A stretch of 64,000 nt of DNA. Origin: Phycisphaerae bacterium. GTDB taxonomy: Bacteria; Planctomycetota; Phycisphaerae; UBA1845. Under the pieces are notes generated by a model. The model saw nothing but the letters and a program-made list of their open reading frames with translations. It did no database searches and was not told the DNA's origin. The translations under genes were made by a program, and so were the position numbers. Shown here piece after piece: positions 19,452 through 64,000 of the stretch (the first letter of the stretch is position 1; each line of letters opens with the position of its first letter). Where the stretch lies: contig JAJDDQ010000032.1 of the NCBI GenBank assembly GCA_029260215.1, forward strand, positions 1 to 64,000, read 5' to 3'.

Positions 19452-20870
19452 CTAAGAGCAGCTCAGGAAGTAGACACCGGAGATTGTGCCCCCAACACCC
19501 ACGACATCGCCAACGCCGATGTTCGGGAAGTTCGGCGGAAGATTGCCGTCGTTGGAGTCATATTCCAGACTACCGAATCCGCCACCGAAGACACTAATCG
19601 TGCCAACCGTCTGGCCATTGATCGTGATGGGATAGTTGCCCGGTGCGAAACCGGAGACATCCACGCGGAAGCGCTCGCGGCCTGGCTCCAAACGGTAGTC
19701 CGAGAAGCCGCTCTGTGAGCCGGGGCCTGAGAGGAACGCATCGACGCGAATCGAACCGTCCGGACAGGTCTGGTTCCCGTTGCCGTTGCCGTTACCGTTG
19801 GTATTGCCGTTGCCGTTACCATTCGTATTTCCGTTCCCGTTACCGTTGGTATTGCCGTTGCCGTTACCATTGGTATTGCCGTTCCCGTTACCGTTGGTAT
19901 TGCCGTTGCCGTTACCGTTGCCGGATCCGGTAAAGAACACCTGCATTTCGGCGAAGTCGGAAAAATCTACATCACCATCCAGATCGAGGTCGGCGAACAA
20001 GCATCGAGGCCGCGTTGAACTGCCGGGCACATCAATGCAATCCGCAAACGAAACAACGTCGGAGAGATCGACGTCACCGTCGTCGTCGGAGTCTCCCGGC
20101 ACCCCGTTACCATTGCCATTCGTGTTGCCGTTACCGTTGCCGTTGCCGTTCGTGTTGCCGTTGGCGTTACCATTGGCGTTACCGTTGCCGTTTCCGTTGC
20201 CGTTACCGTTGCCGTTACCGTTTCCGTTCGAATTGCCGTTGGCGTTGCCATTCCCATTCGAATTGCCATTGCCATTCGAATTACCGTTGAGCGGACCTTC
20301 CGGTCGCTGCTCCGGCGACGTCACGGTAAGCGAGCCGATCCACGCCTCGCCCCAGAACGTGCCTTCCGTCGTGGTCCAAAGCTCGACCGCGCCGGCGGGC
20401 AAAATCGCGTCAAGATCCACCTCGACGAACGCCGGCGACACGCGAGTCGCCAAGCCATTCTGAATGTCAACGGTGAAGCGTCCGATGGGTGACGTGTCCG
20501 CGAGCGTCTCAGCCGCCCCCGCCTCTGCCACCGCAAACTCGATGATCAGCTGATCATCGGTGCGGTCCGAAGCGGAAAACGCGCTTTCAAACGCCTCAAG
20601 TCGAATGTCAGCCACATCGAGCGAAAGATGCACGACGCCGCCCTGCGGGATCGTCAAAAAGCCCTCAGCCGACACATCGTCGATGATCGTGATCCGCTCA
20701 CCGACCGCCACTTCAAAGGGCGCCGGTTCCGCCAGTTTGAGCGTCAGCGCCTCCTTACCTCCGCTCGCGGAACCGGTGCCCGGCAATCCGACTCCACACC
20801 CAACGCCCACGGCGGCGAGTGCGAAAGCCCCCAAGAGAGTTCTCAATTTCCAATTCAACAAACGCATCAT
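19452..20870 (-). CDS. Lipoprotein with two Asn-Gly linkers around an EF-hand pair
   Basis: A 472-residue exported lipoprotein. The N-terminus (MMRLLNWKLRTLLGAFALAA) leads to a lipobox-like VGVGC. An N-terminal beta-rich domain of about 170 residues follows, then a first (NG)n linker. Next come two EF-hand motifs with a Cys pair (GDSDDDGDVDLSDVV, FADC to RC, LDLDGDVDFSDF), a second (NG)n linker, and a C-terminal beta domain. That last domain (YRLEPGRERFRVDV to LEYDSNDGNLPPNFP) also occurs in the beta-helix protein at 28.5-30.3 kb. The start at 20870 is the first ATG giving a lipoprotein signal. It is likely surface-exposed; the function is unknown. Confidence 0.85.
   Translation of the reverse strand: MMRLLNWKLRTLLGAFALAAVGVGCGVGLPGTGSASGGKEALTLKLAEPAPFEVAVGERITIIDDVSAEGFLTIPQGGVVHLSLDVADIRLEAFESAFSASDRTDDQLIIEFAVAEAGAAETLADTSPIGRFTVDIQNGLATRVSPAFVEVDLDAILPAGAVELWTTTEGTFWGEAWIGSLTVTSPEQRPEGPLNGNSNGNGNSNGNGNANGNSNGNGNGNGNGNGNGNGNANGNANGNTNGNGNGNGNTNGNGNGVPGDSDDDGDVDLSDVVSFADCIDVPGSSTRPRCLFADLDLDGDVDFSDFAEMQVFFTGSGNGNGNGNTNGNGNGNTNGNGNGNTNGNGNGNTNGNGNGNTNGNGNGNGNQTCPDGSIRVDAFLSGPGSQSGFSDYRLEPGRERFRVDVSGFAPGNYPITINGQTVGTISVFGGGFGSLEYDSNDGNLPPNFPNIGVGDVVGVGGTISGVYFLSCS
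19774..19923. repeat. Coding repeat for Asn-Gly linker, C-terminal copy
   Basis: Tandem variants of a six-base Asn-Gly unit (CCGTTG/CCGTTA on the plus strand), in places regular at 30 bases with the insertion GGTATT (Asn-Thr). They encode alternating Asn-Gly with occasional Thr. Confidence 0.85.
20107..20292. repeat. Coding repeat for Asn-Gly linker, N-terminal copy
   Basis: The same six-base unit as the copy near 19.8 kb, with Ala and Ser substitutions (Asn-Ala-Asn-Gly and Asn-Ser-Asn-Gly). Confidence 0.85.
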
Positions 20871-33847: not shown

Positions 33848-35272
33848 ATGACGATTCGCCGCAAGCTCGGCATCGCGATGCTGGCGATGTTCTGCATGCT
33901 CCTTGTTACCACTGGTGTCGTTCAGTTCATCGTGGGCGCGGTGTCATCGCACGGGTTGTCCCAAGCCCAGATGCGCGAATTGAGCGTTTTCACCGATGAT
34001 GTGCGCGCTGAAATCTTTTACCAGTTAGCCGCCGCGCGGGGATTCGGCCCGATGCGGGACGTAGAGGACTGGTGGCCTGATGACGTGCTTCAGGATATCG
34101 ACGTTCGCGTACACCACTCCCGGACGGACATTGAGCGTGAATCGTGGCAGGCGGTTCGCGAATCCGTGGAGAAACTGGCTTCGTCTGAACCGGATGACCC
34201 CGCGACCGTGCCATTCGCGCGGACCGCGGACCAGAGGCTTCGCGGACTGCGTCGCCAATACGATCGTCATATCGCCGACGCGATGGCCCGCACCGCGAGG
34301 GTGGTTTCGATCGGGCAGGCGATGGTTTATGCGACGACGTTGTTTTCCGCCCTTCTTTTTGCCATTGTCACATTGCTGATCCGCGACTGGTTCGTGAAGC
34401 CCATCAACGCGCTGAACCAGGCTACGCAGGAGATCGGCGATGGGCGTTTGGATCACCGACTCGAAGTCTCCGGTCGTGATGAGCTGGCCCAACTTGCATC
34501 GCACATCAACACGATGACGGAACGACTTCAGGAACACCAGCGACAGCTCGTCGATAACCGACTTATGGTGGGTATTGGTGAAATGTGTACGAACGTGGCT
34601 CATGGTTTGCGTAACCCGCTGGCGGGAATGCGGGCCAGCGCTCAATTGGCACAACGGCGAACGCGGGACAATGAACAGATTCAGGAGTTCCTTCGGGATA
34701 TTATCAGCGAAATCGATTGTATGGACCGGCGCATTGCGCAATTGTTCGAATTCAGCCGGACTCCGCAATTCAACCGCACAGACACGTCGGCTGCCCAACT
34801 CATCGACGATGCTCAGGCGGAAGCCCGAGGCCTGCTGAAATCCAAGTCGATCCAGATCGCGCTTGATGACACGACGAACGGGCAGGAGTGGCCTGTGGAT
34901 CGAGAGAAAATGGCCGGTGTGCTGGGCGAGTTGCTGATCAACGCGGCGCATCATTCAGCCGACAACTCCACCATTGATGTAAGGGCGGCTTTGTCGGCAA
35001 ACGGCGCGTCAGCCACCGGCCCGTTGAATCTCACAATTCGTGACCACGGGAGCGGGATCGCGCAGAACTCTCTGGACAAGGTGTTTGACCTGTTCTACAC
35101 GACGCGCCCCAATGGAACGGGTATGGGCCTATCGCTGGTGCGGCGTATCGTCGAGCGCCACGGCGGTCGAATCGCAATCGATTCCACGCCGGGCGACGGC
35201 ACAGAGGTTCTCGTTGAGATAGATCGTTCCTCGGAGCGCGAGGCGGGTAAGCAGATTGGCACGATCCCTTGA
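33848..35272 (+). CDS. Membrane sensor histidine kinase with HAMP domain
   Basis: A 474-residue kinase. The first membrane segment (about 8-32) and the second (about 156-178) enclose a sensor of some 120 residues. A HAMP domain (WFVKPINALNQATQEIGDGR) follows. Then comes HisKA with His252 (NVAHGLRNPLAGM), then the HATPase motifs ELLINAAHHS, RDHGSGIA and GTGMGLSLVRRIV. The HGLRNP form is typical of NtrB-like kinases that pair with sigma-54 activators, so the orphan regulator at 30.3-31.8 kb is the most plausible partner. It is the last host gene before the integrated element. Confidence 0.9.
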   Translation: MTIRRKLGIAMLAMFCMLLVTTGVVQFIVGAVSSHGLSQAQMRELSVFTDDVRAEIFYQLAAARGFGPMRDVEDWWPDDVLQDIDVRVHHSRTDIERESWQAVRESVEKLASSEPDDPATVPFARTADQRLRGLRRQYDRHIADAMARTARVVSIGQAMVYATTLFSALLFAIVTLLIRDWFVKPINALNQATQEIGDGRLDHRLEVSGRDELAQLASHINTMTERLQEHQRQLVDNRLMVGIGEMCTNVAHGLRNPLAGMRASAQLAQRRTRDNEQIQEFLRDIISEIDCMDRRIAQLFEFSRTPQFNRTDTSAAQLIDDAQAEARGLLKSKSIQIALDDTTNGQEWPVDREKMAGVLGELLINAAHHSADNSTIDVRAALSANGASATGPLNLTIRDHGSGIAQNSLDKVFDLFYTTRPNGTGMGLSLVRRIVERHGGRIAIDSTPGDGTEVLVEIDRSSEREAGKQIGTIP

Positions 35273-56959: not shown

Positions 56960-57029
56960 CCACAACCGAGACGCCGTTACCCGTGAGGGCCGGAGTGCCA
57001 TCCTGTGCGCTAAGCCGTCTCGGTTGTGG
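56960..57029. promoter_or_regulatory. 14-bp perfect inverted repeat before the integrase gene
   Basis: CCACAACCGAGACG (56960-56973) and CGTCTCGGTTGTGG (57016-57029) flank a 42-base loop. The right arm ends 21 bases before the integrase ATG and just before its GGAGG. It could be an operator, a folded leader or an accessory recombination site. Confidence 0.6.
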
Positions 57030-57050
57030 CTTTCATTGGAGGTTTTTTCA

Positions 57051-58343
57051 ATGAGACCTAGGAACGCAAGTGTGGTGAAAGACCCGCGCAACCCGACTCG
57101 ACCGTGGGTGGTGCGCTGGTCTGAGTCAACAGAGGACGGCATGCGGAGGCGTAAGAGAAAGGCGTTTCCCAAACAGCGTGAGGCGGACCGTTACGCCAGC
57201 CGCAAGACACGGGAGCTGCGCGGGGAAGTTGTGCCCATCGATGAACCAACGCCCGAGCCGGTGGGTGGGCTAGGTGACACGCCGCTGGGGGTGTTCGTCG
57301 ATCTCTATCAGGATCGCCGCAAGATGGACGGCATTCGTGCGGCGACTATCAATATCTATCGCGACAACCTGGGTCGGCTGGTCAAGTGGTTTGGTGAGGG
57401 TCGCAGTATCGGGACGATCACAACTGATGAGGTCTCGTCGTTTCTGTCTGAGCAACGTATCTCGTTGAATACCAGGAAAGACCAGCCGCTGTCCAAGTCG
57501 TCGCGTAACGGAATCGTGCGTGATCTCGGAACAATGTTTTCGCACGCAAAAGACTGGGGCTACATAGCATCGTCGCCGATGTCGGGTATCCGCATGCTCA
57601 GGGTCAACGAGGACGACCGGCGCGGATGGCACTACTTTAGCCCGACCGGGTTGAATGCGATCATCGATGAAGCGCTGACGAGCCGTGAGAAGGCTGTGTA
57701 CGCTATTTTGTATGGCACTGGGCTCCGTTTCGGTGAGGCATTCTCGCGCCACCCGGATGATGTTGATCTTGAAACTCAGTATGTGCATGTGAGGCCACGT
57801 GAGGCGACCGACGATACGCCACCGTTTCGGGTTAAGGACCATGAACGGCGATCGATTCCTATACCGGCATTCGCGGTGGAGATGGTGGCAAAGCTGAAGG
57901 CGACGCTGCCGAAGGGTCACCCGTACCTGTTCATCACGCCTGAGCGATGCGAACACATCCGGGAATTGTGGCACAAGGTGTCAAAACAGGGTGGCGAGTG
58001 GCAAAACCGGATGATGGTGAACAACACCGTCCGCGATCTGAAACGATACGTGGCAAGAGCCGGAATCACCCTCAACGGTCCTGTGACCGTGCACGCACTG
58101 CGCAAGAGCTACGGCAGAAACGGTGCGCGATGCCTGTCTCCGGATGTGCTGAAGGCCTACATGGGACACTCGGACGTAGCCACGACGTTGACGTATTACT
58201 CTAAGCGTGACGCTGACGATGATGTCCGTGCACGGTGGGCTTTGGACGCCATGATGATCGGCGAATCGATGCCAGGTTTGAAGCTAAGTGACGTGCAAAG
58301 TGACGTACGGACCGAAAACGACCAAAGCCGGAAGGCCAGTTAG
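57051..58343 (+). CDS. Tyrosine recombinase, element integrase
   Basis: A 430-residue phage-type integrase. The N-terminal AP2-like arm-binding domain is at about 1-75 and the SAM-like core-binding domain at about 85-180 (IRAATINIYRDNLGRLVKWF). The catalytic domain has Arg in LYGTGLRFGEA, HALRKSYG (H-x2-R), GHSDVATTLTYYSKRD (H and nucleophile Tyr). GGAGG lies eight bases before ATG 57051. The gene ends 48 bases from the tRNA-Ala it uses. Its last codons overlap the right tandem AAGTGACGT motifs. Confidence 0.93.
   Translation: MRPRNASVVKDPRNPTRPWVVRWSESTEDGMRRRKRKAFPKQREADRYASRKTRELRGEVVPIDEPTPEPVGGLGDTPLGVFVDLYQDRRKMDGIRAATINIYRDNLGRLVKWFGEGRSIGTITTDEVSSFLSEQRISLNTRKDQPLSKSSRNGIVRDLGTMFSHAKDWGYIASSPMSGIRMLRVNEDDRRGWHYFSPTGLNAIIDEALTSREKAVYAILYGTGLRFGEAFSRHPDDVDLETQYVHVRPREATDDTPPFRVKDHERRSIPIPAFAVEMVAKLKATLPKGHPYLFITPERCEHIRELWHKVSKQGGEWQNRMMVNNTVRDLKRYVARAGITLNGPVTVHALRKSYGRNGARCLSPDVLKAYMGHSDVATTLTYYSKRDADDDVRARWALDAMMIGESMPGLKLSDVQSDVRTENDQSRKAS
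58286..58306 (+). promoter_or_regulatory. Candidate integrase arm-type sites, right
   Basis: CTAAGTGACGT and CAAAGTGACGT with the same 12-bp period and same orientation as the pair at 35491-35511, lying inside the 3' end of the integrase gene and 85 bases from the attachment site. Confidence 0.5.
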
Positions 58344-58390
58344 GCTGACCATGCCGACGCAAACCATGCCACCTCAAAGGGTTATGTGAC

Positions 58391-58434
58391 TGGAGCCGTG
58401 GGGACTCGAACCCCAGACCTCCTGCATGCCATGC
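58391..58434. other. Right attachment site
   Basis: The 44-base direct repeat of 35327-35370 with two differences, at the two paired T-stem positions. It forms the 3' half of the functional tRNA-Ala. Confidence 0.85.
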
Positions 58435-58463
58435 AGGCGTTCTCCCAACTGAACTACGGCCCC
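58391..58463 (-). tRNA. tRNA-Ala(GGC), integration target
   Basis: A 73-base cloverleaf. The acceptor stem is GGGGCCG with CGGCTCC plus discriminator A, the anticodon stem CCTGC/GCAGG encloses ATGGCAT (anticodon GGC), and the T stem is TGGGG/CCCCA. Its 3' half (58391-58434) is the right attachment site of the element. Confidence 0.96.
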
Positions 58464-61413: not shown

Positions 61414-62568
61414 ATGAACCGCATACCGACCATCATAGGCCTATGCTTCTGCCTCCCGCTCGTCGTGTCGGCCGGCGAACGGTCAAACGAGGCTCAAGCC
61501 GCCCACCGCATTGTCGCGTTCGAATCGACCGACGCGCTCCCCGCCGACATCGCATCCATGTTCCGGTTGCGATCCGAAGAATTCGCCCACTTCGCGACCG
61601 AACCAGGCCACGATTGGACCAGGGACGCGAAGATGCGCAAACGCGTCCGATGGCATGACATCCAGATCGATATCGAATCCGAAAACCAGTCGACGGCTGC
61701 ACGAATCGAAGCAGCGCTGCGTTTTCCAAGAGACAAGCGACTCGCCGGAATCCTGTACCGAAAGCACGCCCTTCACACCGGCGGGACGCTGCCGTGGGCC
61801 GTCGAGGCATGCTTCGATCAACTCGTCAAAGCCTTCCGTTCAGGCTCCGAGACGGACATCATCAAATCGGCAGGCCACCTCGCTCATTTCGCCACCGATG
61901 CTGCCTTACCCCTTCGTACAACAACAGGCGCGACCGGAAAATCAAACGGCAACGCAGTGTTCTCGATCTCTCGCGGCCCTCACGGTCCCAGCTCGCTGGC
62001 CACCGTACGCGCACGGTTCGAAGTCGGCTTGATCGCGACCCGTTCGACCGAGTACGCCCAGGCTGTTCATGTGGAGGTATCCGACTACGAACCCGTAACC
62101 GACGCTGCCGCGGTCGCATTCGCCGTCGTACTCGATTCACTCAAATCAGCGGAGCCCATTCTTGAAGCTGACCGTGAAACCTTGCTCGAATTGGAAATCA
62201 CCAATCGCCGCGAGATGAAACAACGACAGGCTGAATATGTTGATGCGGTGCACGCCCGCTGCGGACCGCTCGTGGTTGAGCGGTTGACGATGGCGTCGAG
62301 GCTGACTGCCGACCTGATCGGGGGTGCGTGGGAGGCAGCGGGCTTGCCCACGGTCGCAGGCATCCGCGCCCGAACGACGGAGCCTTCCGCCGCCAAACGT
62401 ACCGCGGGCGGCAGATTCGTCGGAAGCAGGAGATCGGTGGTTTTCCACGTGCCCAGTTGTCGATTCGCAAAACAGATCAGCGACGACAATCTCATGTACT
62501 TCGAATCCGCCGTCACCGCCCGCCGTGAGGGGCGCCGGGCTTGCCGCTTATGCGACCCCCAGCCCTGA
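61414..62568 (+). CDS. Exported protein with phospholipase C/P1-nuclease-like region and Ada-like metal site
   Basis: A 384-residue protein. Its signal peptide (MNRIPTIIGLCFCLPLVVSA) is followed by a helical domain with HLAHFATDAALPLRTT. That resembles the central motif of zinc-dependent phospholipase C/S1-P1 nucleases, though not all zinc ligands are visible. The last 50 residues (VGSRRSVVFHVPSCRFAKQI, then ACRLCDP) resemble an Ada-type metal-binding domain with H-x4-C and C-x2-C. GAGG precedes ATG 61414. The long upstream frame overlaps the AIM24 gene and is not used. Confidence 0.75.
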   Translation: MNRIPTIIGLCFCLPLVVSAGERSNEAQAAHRIVAFESTDALPADIASMFRLRSEEFAHFATEPGHDWTRDAKMRKRVRWHDIQIDIESENQSTAARIEAALRFPRDKRLAGILYRKHALHTGGTLPWAVEACFDQLVKAFRSGSETDIIKSAGHLAHFATDAALPLRTTTGATGKSNGNAVFSISRGPHGPSSLATVRARFEVGLIATRSTEYAQAVHVEVSDYEPVTDAAAVAFAVVLDSLKSAEPILEADRETLLELEITNRREMKQRQAEYVDAVHARCGPLVVERLTMASRLTADLIGGAWEAAGLPTVAGIRARTTEPSAAKRTAGGRFVGSRRSVVFHVPSCRFAKQISDDNLMYFESAVTARREGRRACRLCDPQP

Positions 62569-62586
62569 TGCACCCGTAACGAAAAA

Positions 62587-62624
62587 GGTGGAAGATGCCC
62601 CCGTGGCGACGGGCATCTTCCACC
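62587..62624. terminator. Bidirectional intrinsic terminator
   Basis: A perfect 14-bp stem (GGTGGAAGATGCCC with GGGCATCTTCCACC) around a ten-base loop. On the minus strand it is followed by TTTTTC, serving the histone-like gene; on the plus strand by TGATTTTC, serving the exported-protein gene. Confidence 0.85.
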
Positions 62625-62729
62625 TGATTTTCATTCGCCTTACAACAAGGCGATTGGCTGCGTGCGCCATGCTCGGCCGCCGTGGCGTGGGTCGAGCGAA
62701 TCGGCACGCGACCACCTGAAACGCGTGAA

Positions 62730-62861
62730 CTACTTCTTGCGCTTCTTGGCAGTCTTCTTCTTGGCAGTTTTCTTCTTTGCCGTTTTCTTCACAGCCTTCT
62801 TGGCTGTCTTCTTAGCTGCCTTCTTGGCAGTCTTCTTGGCGGCCTTACGCTTTTTAGCCAT
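62730..62861 (-). CDS. Histone H1-like lysine-rich nucleoid protein, 43 residues
   Basis: The minus-strand frame starts ATG at 62861 (MAKKRKAAKKTAKKAAKKTA) and ends TAKKRKK, stop at 62730. It is built almost only of Ala-Lys-Lys-Thr/Ala repeats, with over half of residues lysine. This composition matches C-terminal histone H1-like and AlgP/Hc1-type DNA-binding proteins that condense bacterial DNA. An excellent AAGGAGGTGA lies just before the ATG, and a strong terminator follows the stop, so a real, well-expressed gene is likely. It is made only of the basic tail, without a globular domain. Confidence 0.85.
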   Translation of the reverse strand: MAKKRKAAKKTAKKAAKKTAKKAVKKTAKKKTAKKKTAKKRKK

Positions 62862-63651
62862 AGGTCACCTCCTTTCATTAAAAAAATGGTACACGTCGTT
62901 TTAGGGCTGTCAAAAACTTTTTGTGCAGCACGACCATCTTTGGCGCACACATTATGGTGTTCCGCCGACGTGAGACACAACGCGCGAAGCCACCCACGCG
63001 ACCCCAAAACGATCGCCGTGCTAACCAGTGCCATTCTATGGCACTCACGAACAATCATGAACAACAACATACCTTTACGTGCCCGGCGACAAACAACCCG
63101 CGGCGTAATGGTTCACCAGCAATGTTCTCAAGCTGTCGCACGAATCGCTCTCGTAACGCGACCAGATTTGCACAACGCGCAGTTTATTCGGAAAAAACGG
63201 GAGGTTTTGTTGTACACGAGAAGATGTGACACAACGTGATGCGCGTTACGGTCGCCGGCTTGATCGCCAACCAGTATTGCGCGCTTGCTGCTCCGCCAGC
63301 AAGAACTCAACCACCGAAGCACACTAAAACGTGTTGACCATCTCTCCCAATAGGAACATGTCGTCTCACGAAGGAAACACACCTGCGCCGCAACCCAAGC
63401 GCAGCGATTGGTGCGGGACGATCGAATTCGCCCCCTCAAAAAAATTTTTGGATTTCGGCAAAAAGAGATTGACGCAACGTCGCGCGCAACACGTTTTGCA
63501 CGATTTCGCGCGCATGCCGTCGTTCGGTTCACGCGAATCCGAACGATCAAACGAAGTCATTTTGGGGTTGTGTCATGCACATACACGCGCGCAAACAGGT
63601 TTTCGATGGTTGCGCTCGTTGCGCCAACGAACATGCTCGGACACACGCAAA
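62862..63651. other. Long noncoding region upstream of the histone-like gene
   Basis: About 790 bases with no convincing gene on either strand. It has AT-rich parts near 62.88 kb and an A/T run at 63437-63450, and repeated CACACG/GCGCGC-rich words. It should hold the histone-like gene promoter. Confidence 0.45.
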
Positions 63652-63711: not shown

Positions 63712-64000
63712 TTACGGCTGATCGTTATTCATCGTCTCTCCGTCCCACGCGCGTGTCGACGGCGACACACCGTTGATGAGCTGGCGAAAGCGAAGAAGAT
63801 CGAACGGCGAAATCGATCCGTTGCGGTCCATATCGGCGAAATCGACGATCGCACCCTGATCCGGTGTGACCAGTCCGTTCACGTACTGACGGAACACAAG
63901 CAGGTCGAAGGGGGCAACCGTGCCGGTTTGATCCACATCCGCCGGCAGGAAGCCGATGTCGATGCGATCATCCTCGTCCACGCCCGGGCCCTGATTACCC
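63712..64000 (-). CDS. EF-hand-tailed secreted protein, C-terminus only
   Basis: The frame is open to the window edge; about 96 C-terminal residues are visible. It reads GPGVDEDDRIDIGFLPADVD, then an EF-hand-like pair: QTGTVAPFDLLVFRQYVNG and RNGSISPFDLLRFRQLING. It ends AWDGETMNNDQP. It is clearly homologous to the tail of the beta-propeller protein at 49.9-52.0 kb inside the element. The N-terminal part lies to the right of the window. Confidence 0.85.
   Translation of the reverse strand, partial: GNQGPGVDEDDRIDIGFLPADVDQTGTVAPFDLLVFRQYVNGLVTPDQGAIVDFADMDRNGSISPFDLLRFRQLINGVSPSTRAWDGETMNNDQP

Follow-up and report, generated by a model that had tools for sequence, protein, structure and literature searches.

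The minus strand of the window, as we call the whole stretch of 64,000 nucleotides analysed here, carries a real gene for a 43-residue lysine-repeat peptide that consists of a tail without any recognisable domain. Judged from its sequence, this peptide has about an even chance of being a DNA-binding factor that compacts the nucleoid, while its safest description is a polycation that binds polyanions. The interpretation given in the initial annotation, a short histone H1-like gene for an abundant DNA-compacting factor, is as a whole partly supported.

The gene, its relatives and its neighbours

62730–62861, minus strand: tail-only Lys-rich microprotein, an ORF of 43 codons with homologues

The frame runs from ATG at 62861 down to a TAG codon ending at 62730, which is exactly the position proposed in the initial annotation, where the strand had been left unstated. 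The encoded peptide, MAKKRKAAKKTAKKAAKKTAKKAVKKTAKKKTAKKKTAKKRKK, has the composition K23 A11 T5 R2 V1 M1 with no acidic residues and is most probably disordered, as expected for a lysine repeat of this kind. Its 23 lysines may be compared with only 6 to 9 in the best 43-codon stretches of 30 Markov-simulated windows. Neither Pfam nor NCBIfam gave any match for the window protein, and a PDB sequence search with it gave none either.

A DNA pattern composed of the ribosome site followed by Met-Ala-Lys-Lys was found in 94 of 397 genomes of the class, exactly once in each, while the reversed-pattern control gave zero; for the window's own family the pattern was present in 32 of 46 genomes. Ninety of the 94 places were read (the four unread ones all belong to family f25), and 89 of them encode the same kind of tail-only lysine repeat behind the same ribosome site, so that the gene proposed as tail-only and H1-tail-like proved genuine; the single exception, L132, is a longer protein, HNH-like by eye. 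Together with L190 (genome G023), a family member found by DNA similarity, these places make up a set of 90 members from 13 families, 12 to 129 residues long with a median of 36, one of which (L137) runs off its contig end. Pooled, they consist of 58% Lys, 22% Ala, 7% Thr, 5% Val and 4% Arg, with 0.5% of proline and one acidic residue in all 90. The remark that such a gene is easily missed for its shortness applies to the whole set, as 34 of the 90 members (one of them cut by a contig end) have fewer than 30 residues and the minimum is 12, and profile libraries are silent on the window protein. Repeat number, for which variation among strains had been suggested as a check, does vary, and strongly: members of 86, 94 and 98 residues occur within a single genus (g10).

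The pattern does not exhaust the genes of this type. Four members (L085, L093, L097 and L099) were met outside it, and some genomes devoid of the pattern have tail genes of the MAKK type behind a different leader (L107 and L108 in f4, L253 and L257 in f22). Judged by the pattern, 303 of the 397 class genomes have no such cassette, which excludes a universal role in chromatin. A phylum-wide pattern with matches in 114 of 294 genomes allowed too short a gap and so missed the window gene itself; it also caught unrelated proteins, its reversed control matched in some genomes too, and all that can be taken from it is that the phylum commonly has MAKK-type starts with more KK. A protein search of 60 relatives returned nothing beyond the query gene and a single weak stretch interrupted by a stop, probably because the correction for low complexity removes such peptides; homologues were recovered by DNA search and DNA patterns instead.

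Codon usage argues that the peptide is what is maintained. Lysine is encoded in the 90 members by AAG 1508 times and by AAA 751 times, and all four codons of Ala as well as all four of Thr are common. Codon 5, which was free in the search pattern, specifies Arg in 32 of 33 family members by means of CGT, CGC, CGA or AGA. Each pair among three congeneric copies of 24 residues differs by 2 synonymous codons and no other; in six further equal-length pairs printed, which are more distant, non-synonymous differences equal or exceed synonymous ones in all but one. Because synonymous codons vary and residues stay, the protein is under selection. Conservation of the frame in close relatives, on which the initial annotation had made its proposal depend, is thus borne out by 89 of 90 places with varied synonymous codons. 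A hydrophobic ORF of 80 residues on the plus strand (62662–62904), considered as the antisense reading, is disfavoured: it is for the minus strand that ribosome site, promoter and terminator tract show conservation, and the variation spans all synonymous codons of that strand.

Two neighbours contribute to the comparison of loci within the family:

61417–62568, plus strand: convergent neighbour with a C-terminal Ada_Zn_binding match; homologues in 19 of the 33 family loci, the window among them
63715–64000, minus strand: upstream neighbour (3' part), by eye like a PQQ-type sugar dehydrogenase; C-terminal dockerin match; the gene runs to contig base 65598

Homologues of the convergent gene are 25 to 42% identical to the window copy, and as this neighbour is shared, these family loci are orthologous. 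A PQQ-dehydrogenase-like homologue was registered upstream in 10 family loci by clustering, and nine match the own copy by blastp (39 to 59%). Orthology by synteny is shown for many family loci, in part of the family. At other loci the neighbours are different, with a divergent nadD-like gene in 34 loci and a Der-like gene in 4, both named by eye.

With its many Lys codons and a terminator hairpin behind it, the short ORF might also be taken for the lysine-codon leader peptide of an attenuator, and in one clade (9 loci) a lysA-like gene, assigned by eye, does lie downstream. Such a role is highly improbable: the next gene past the hairpin is the convergent one, here as well as in the other loci that share it, the downstream genes differ between families, and a leader peptide does not fit with lengths of 12 to 129 residues or with Ala, Thr and Lys being encoded by every one of their synonymous codons.

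Several other genes were followed in the surroundings. The neighbouring aim24 gene has its best matches in Phycisphaerae and Planctomycetota MAGs, in line with a genome of Phycisphaerae type. The idea of aim24 as a stable neighbour was rejected after a scan of 80 aim24 loci (up to 6 kb per side, many shorter), which contained no tail-only gene of this kind. Linkage with parB as a general feature was rejected as well: with a ParB match in 53 of 64 genomes tested, the two genes lie within 100 kb of each other only here (5 kb upstream) and in G077 (77 kb); in the single-contig genomes G023, G358, G378 and G384 the best ParB match is at least 0.5 Mb from the tail gene, and in the remaining genomes it is on a different contig. 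For dnaA, found in 62 of the 64 genomes, no consistent distance was observed on shared contigs (44 kb in G120, 52 kb in G384, more than 1 Mb in G378). A ParA-type ATPase gene was noticed downstream on the same strand in eight loci of five families (L122, L124, L183, L184, L199, L206, L208 and L209), one of which was domain-scanned; in these genomes ParB is matched on a different contig, except for G077, where it lies 77 kb off. Elsewhere in the window, an integrase-like ORF (by eye) at 57024–58463 lies beside tRNA-Ala (58391–58463), possibly marking the edge of a mobile element, and arrays of GTTGCC-type hexamer repeats with up to 25 units occupy positions 19773–20282.

Start signals and 3' hairpins

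62908–62913, minus strand: −35 hexamer TTGACA with a 16-nt spacer; layout conserved in the family
62886–62891, minus strand: −10 hexamer TACCAT; layout found in 31 of 33 family loci
62865–62875, minus strand: Shine-Dalgarno sequence AAAGGAGGTGA, 11 nt, fully complementary to the 16S 3' end
62666–62700, minus strand: hairpin 1 in the 3' UTR, carrying GCCACGG; moderate covariation, 35.8 bits with the next match at 24.2
62577–62630, minus strand: hairpin 2, a terminator stem with the loop GCCACGG, then a T-tract; 12 of 12 pairs covary, 59.2 bits

The promoter scan found one promoter-like site, TTGACA-16-TACCAT, to which the initial annotation makes no reference, with 0.5 expected by chance, and the weight of this promoter rests therefore on its conservation. 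The arrangement TTGACA-N16-TAnnnT, ending 9–11 nt before the ribosome site, is present in the 31 loci counted above, and the two remaining ones are one base off (TTTACA in L176 and TAACAA in L177). Outside the family TTGAC was recognised by eye in loci of f5, f8 and f13 and is absent in most loci of f21 and f23.

The ribosome site had been called near-perfect in the initial annotation. Eleven bases of the 16S 3' end of the own genome (locus L293), TCACCTCCTTT, match AAAGGAGGTGA, and since this end reads GGATCACCTCCTTTC, the ribosome site pairs with it over all 11 bases. The distance of 3 nt to the ATG is the shortest among the 90 members, the rest having 4 to 8. Located 2–9 nt before ATG, GTG or TTG, the 11-mer occurs at only 2 places in the 4.97-Mb draft genome, the second of which (G000:C86:36202, L213) precedes an ORF that is integrase-like by eye. 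The longest match to the ribosome site among 470 ORFs of at least 200 residues was 9 nt (2 ORFs), against 11 in the tail gene; these ORFs were called mechanically in six frames from 401,543 nt of the genome, and the best of up to five starts was taken for each. Such an anatomy of promoter and ribosome site is that expected of a strongly expressed gene and suggests a high abundance of its product. In the clade f23 (L125–L134) a conserved GGATTT...AGCC, perhaps a leader element, was seen just upstream of AAAGGAGGTGA, and the same loci have a lysA-like gene downstream, by eye.

A terminator with a 14-bp stem had been ascribed to the gene. The terminator is indeed present, but its stem (hairpin 2) has 15 pairs, followed by TTTTTCG, and it starts 104 nt after the stop codon, at 62577–62630 and so outside the coordinates then assigned to the gene. 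Apart from this terminator stem, the gene-specific hairpins lie outside the initial picture. Terminator-like hairpins within 200 nt were found in 58 of 88 loci, as compared with a mean of 5.8 and a maximum of 10 in shuffled sequences. In 65 of 90 loci the motif GCCACGG lies no more than 300 nt behind the gene (20 loci, all from family f1, have two copies), and in 58 of 90 it is located in a stem of at least 6 pairs within 350 nt of the gene; a strict hairpin regular expression retains 34 of 90 loci. Elsewhere, 2.59 million strand-bases contain 28 cases of GCCACGG in a stem, none with five consecutive T in the ten bases printed after it. At some motif loci (e.g. L181, L201 and L203) the listed GCCACGG does not look like the loop of a terminator.

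By filter, a GCCACGG hairpin precedes a T-tract in 49 loci, and 36 of these hairpins were aligned (alignment A1), 13, several of them near-duplicates, being dropped by eye. Changes on both sides are seen at each of the 12 pairs, the share of cells that pair is 94.9% as compared with 78.6% after shuffling, and no slid register exceeds 55.1%. As A1 was selected by the motif, its invariant loop proves nothing; the covariation in the stem and the matches in held-out loci are independent of this selection, the held-out loci being partly close relatives of the model rows. In 46 sources comprising 661,604 nt (the window, stretches of the own genome and aim24 loci of planctomycete MAGs) the covariance model of hairpin 2 matched only its own hairpin (59.2 bits) and the mirror strand of it (35.6 bits), with the next match at 13.2 bits; both matches recur in the overlapping locus L211. 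The 27 strongest held-out matches were listed, one per locus. In 26 cases the match has a tail gene of the same orientation 14 to 160 nt before it, and L128, the remaining case, mirrors a match on the minus strand of that locus. Weak matches in L094, L270 and L124 have 15 to 18 bits and E above 0.1.

The evidence for hairpin 1 is of another degree. In its alignment (29 of 34 sequences, after one duplicate, one cut off and three from outside the family had been dropped) 81.6% of the cells are paired versus 73.9% in shuffles, changes on both sides are not above those in shuffles (311 of 500), and one pair is unpaired in 14 of 29 sequences. Its model also matches the window at 35143–35177 (24.2 bits, E 0.012). 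In family f1 this weaker hairpin with the same motif precedes hairpin 2.

Hairpin 2 is likely to terminate the message and to protect it. Since a stem followed by a T-tract is enough for a terminator, whatever the loop, these roles do not account for the conserved loop; it could mean a dual-function transcript, in which the mRNA would act via its GCCACGG hairpins and the peptide would be either an additional product or, under autoregulation, the ligand of the hairpin. We consider this rather unlikely; such a second function does not exclude any of the other readings. The covarying stem, the recurrence of the motif behind the gene, in 49 loci before a T-tract, and the specificity of the covariance model in both the 46 sources and the held-out loci all speak for it. 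Against it, the T-tract that follows lets the role of a terminator explain much of the stem, 25 loci lack the motif in its exact form, and neither the rRNA-bearing start of L293 nor the 16S loci of three relatives contain the complement CCGTGGC. At the gathering score Rfam 15 recognised only tRNAs in the window and nothing in 20 loci, the best match below threshold being RF00236 with 23.8 against a required 45. As a separate observation, many loci (e.g. L161, L162, L173, L193–L195) have TGCGC or a sequence close to it directly behind the T-tract of hairpin 2, beyond the expected end of transcription.

Possible partners of the peptide

The mechanism favoured here starts from a gene that looks highly expressed, has one match per genome and would supply a domain-free polycation. 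The peptide would bind the phosphate backbone of chromosomal DNA, neutralise its charge and help to compact the nucleoid, much as is thought for the Lys-rich tail of histone H1 and for chlamydial Hc1 and Hc2. At least 16 residues of Lys and Arg together are present in 63 of the 90 members, the window peptide having 25, and 27 of the 90 fall below this number; oligolysines of at least 16 residues are reported to package plasmid DNA stably and 8-mers less so (PMC4991294). Profiles of the H1-like and HC2 type are the only Pfam or NCBIfam matches at E up to 1, all weak, in two of three long members tested. Against compaction of DNA one can say that members go down to 12 residues, which is short for an architectural protein. 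The own genome has two HU/IHF-type matches elsewhere. The initial annotation had also appealed to highly condensed chromatin in planctomycetes: an unusually condensed nucleoid is indeed described for Gemmata, but not for the present lineage, in a paper in which the proteins condensing it were not identified (PMC3440768).

Similar tails are met on other proteins. Codon runs for KK(T/P/S/A)AKK in the own genome were found, apart from the tail gene, in Lon and trigger factor, as a C-terminal tail in both, and at L272, where the run is in no recognisable gene. The tails of Lon (L273, G000:C13:27015) and trigger factor (L280, G000:C35:6313) are KKTAKK-like, and adding them may be a habit of the class. 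In relatives, N-terminal KK tails were seen on proteins that a domain scan showed to be HU-type (L258), Toprim (topoisomerase I type, L263) and HhH-GPD (L268), and L261 was counted with them; the ribosomal protein Thx (L098, 1333–1521) has a C-terminal Lys/Thr repeat tail. DNA is the most frequent type of partner in the handful of tailed proteins viewed, and not the only one. Since tails occur on DNA-binding proteins but also on trigger factor, Lon and Thx, DNA as the sole target is not established.

The tails on trigger factor (L280) and Thx (L098) suggest in turn that the peptide could associate with rRNA or ribosomes rather than with DNA. Members of 12–25 residues are about as large as small basic ribosomal peptides, and EF-P-like (5 loci) or Der-like (4 loci) genes are neighbours in some clades, by eye. 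A tenfold variation in length is, however, unlike a structural ribosomal protein, the tails are carried by DNA proteins as well and a ribosomal neighbourhood is not consistent, so that we see this assignment as rather unlikely. More remote is an organiser of polyphosphate granules or other polyanions like AlgP of Pseudomonas, the H1-tail-like KPAA domain protein found on the granules and needed for their spacing (PMC9239181). The KK tail on Lon of the own genome would be in line with it, but the peptide has no AlgP-like N-terminal domain and the set is nearly free of proline, which makes this role quite improbable.

Returning to the chromatin peptide as the preferred reading, one can imagine, with less confidence, a novel cassette spread through the class, in which a full-strength start signal and a domain-free polylysine peptide of sometimes only 12 residues are combined with the covarying gene-specific hairpin. 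The GCCACGG loop would then serve as a binding site through which the dose of the peptide or the activity of the RNA is set, and its ligand might be the peptide itself, an RNA-binding protein or another RNA.

Comparison with known polycations and significance

The C-terminal tail of histone H1 is rich in lysine and alanine. The peptide described here is likewise a Lys/Ala-rich polycation and resembles this tail by composition, having no recognisable domain, almost no acidic residues and a variable number of repeats. It differs from the linker histone as a 43-residue protein lacking the globular winged-helix domain, with little proline and no Pfam match. The composition of the H1 tail is also given in PMC9239181.

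Hc2 (HctB, Chlamydia, PF07382) and BpH1 of Bordetella likewise consist of short Lys-rich repeats with Ala, Thr and Val, and proteins of the Hc2 type are reported to vary in length by in-frame repeat number (PMC2848022). Hc2, however, has 165–237 residues and a C-terminal domain, as compared with 43 (12–129 in the set) for the tail gene. The window protein gave no match to PF07382, NF038053 or NF038052; among three long members one reached 22.2 bits with PF07382 (cut-off 40), two 10.1 and 21.9 bits with NF038053 (cut-off 80) and one 19.2 bits with NF038052 (cut-off 135). No profile cut-off tested places the tail gene in the Hc2 or H1-like families. The tails of AlgP and PhaF in Pseudomonas are also H1-like with spaced lysines, that of AlgP being predicted as disordered. 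AlgP is described as a helical N-terminal domain of 124 residues followed by KPAA repeats (PMC9239181), and neither a folded N-terminal domain nor KPAA repeats are found in the window sequence.

In prokaryotic proteins with a histone fold, tails accompany the fold, whereas in the window protein the tail stands alone; most tails of bacterial face-to-face histones are stated to be positively charged (PMC11390915). By eye, L219, L228 and L243 from other Planctomycetota have a MAKK-type N-terminal tail before histone-fold-like sequence, with no Pfam match. A Lys-rich extension of HU is represented by the KK tail of the HU-type L258 (class family f10), whereas the window protein has no HU domain and no match to PF00216 (HU/IHF); the one HU copy of the own genome that was read, L248 of two, has no such tail.

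In the open-licence literature, no description of the gene was recognised by title or start of the abstract among the matches listed, and the main text of a review on nucleoid-associated proteins (PMC11894785) contains none of the terms lysine-rich, histone H1, Hc1, linker histone and planctomycet. By composition, the action of the peptide should resemble that of the H1 tail, Hc2 or the AlgP tail. What is new with respect to these known polycations is that it is domain-free, goes down to 12 residues and is tied to a conserved RNA hairpin.

Genes of this sort are easily overlooked: many are shorter than 30 residues, Pfam and NCBIfam are silent on the window protein, and trypsin cuts Lys-rich stretches and leads to undercounting, as said of AlgP (PMC9239181). 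A polycation that is encoded once per genome, apparently highly expressed and distributed over 13 families of a planctomycete class offers a testable candidate for a nucleoid-condensing factor, and if the loop of its hairpin binds something, the cassette would contain a new RNA element too.
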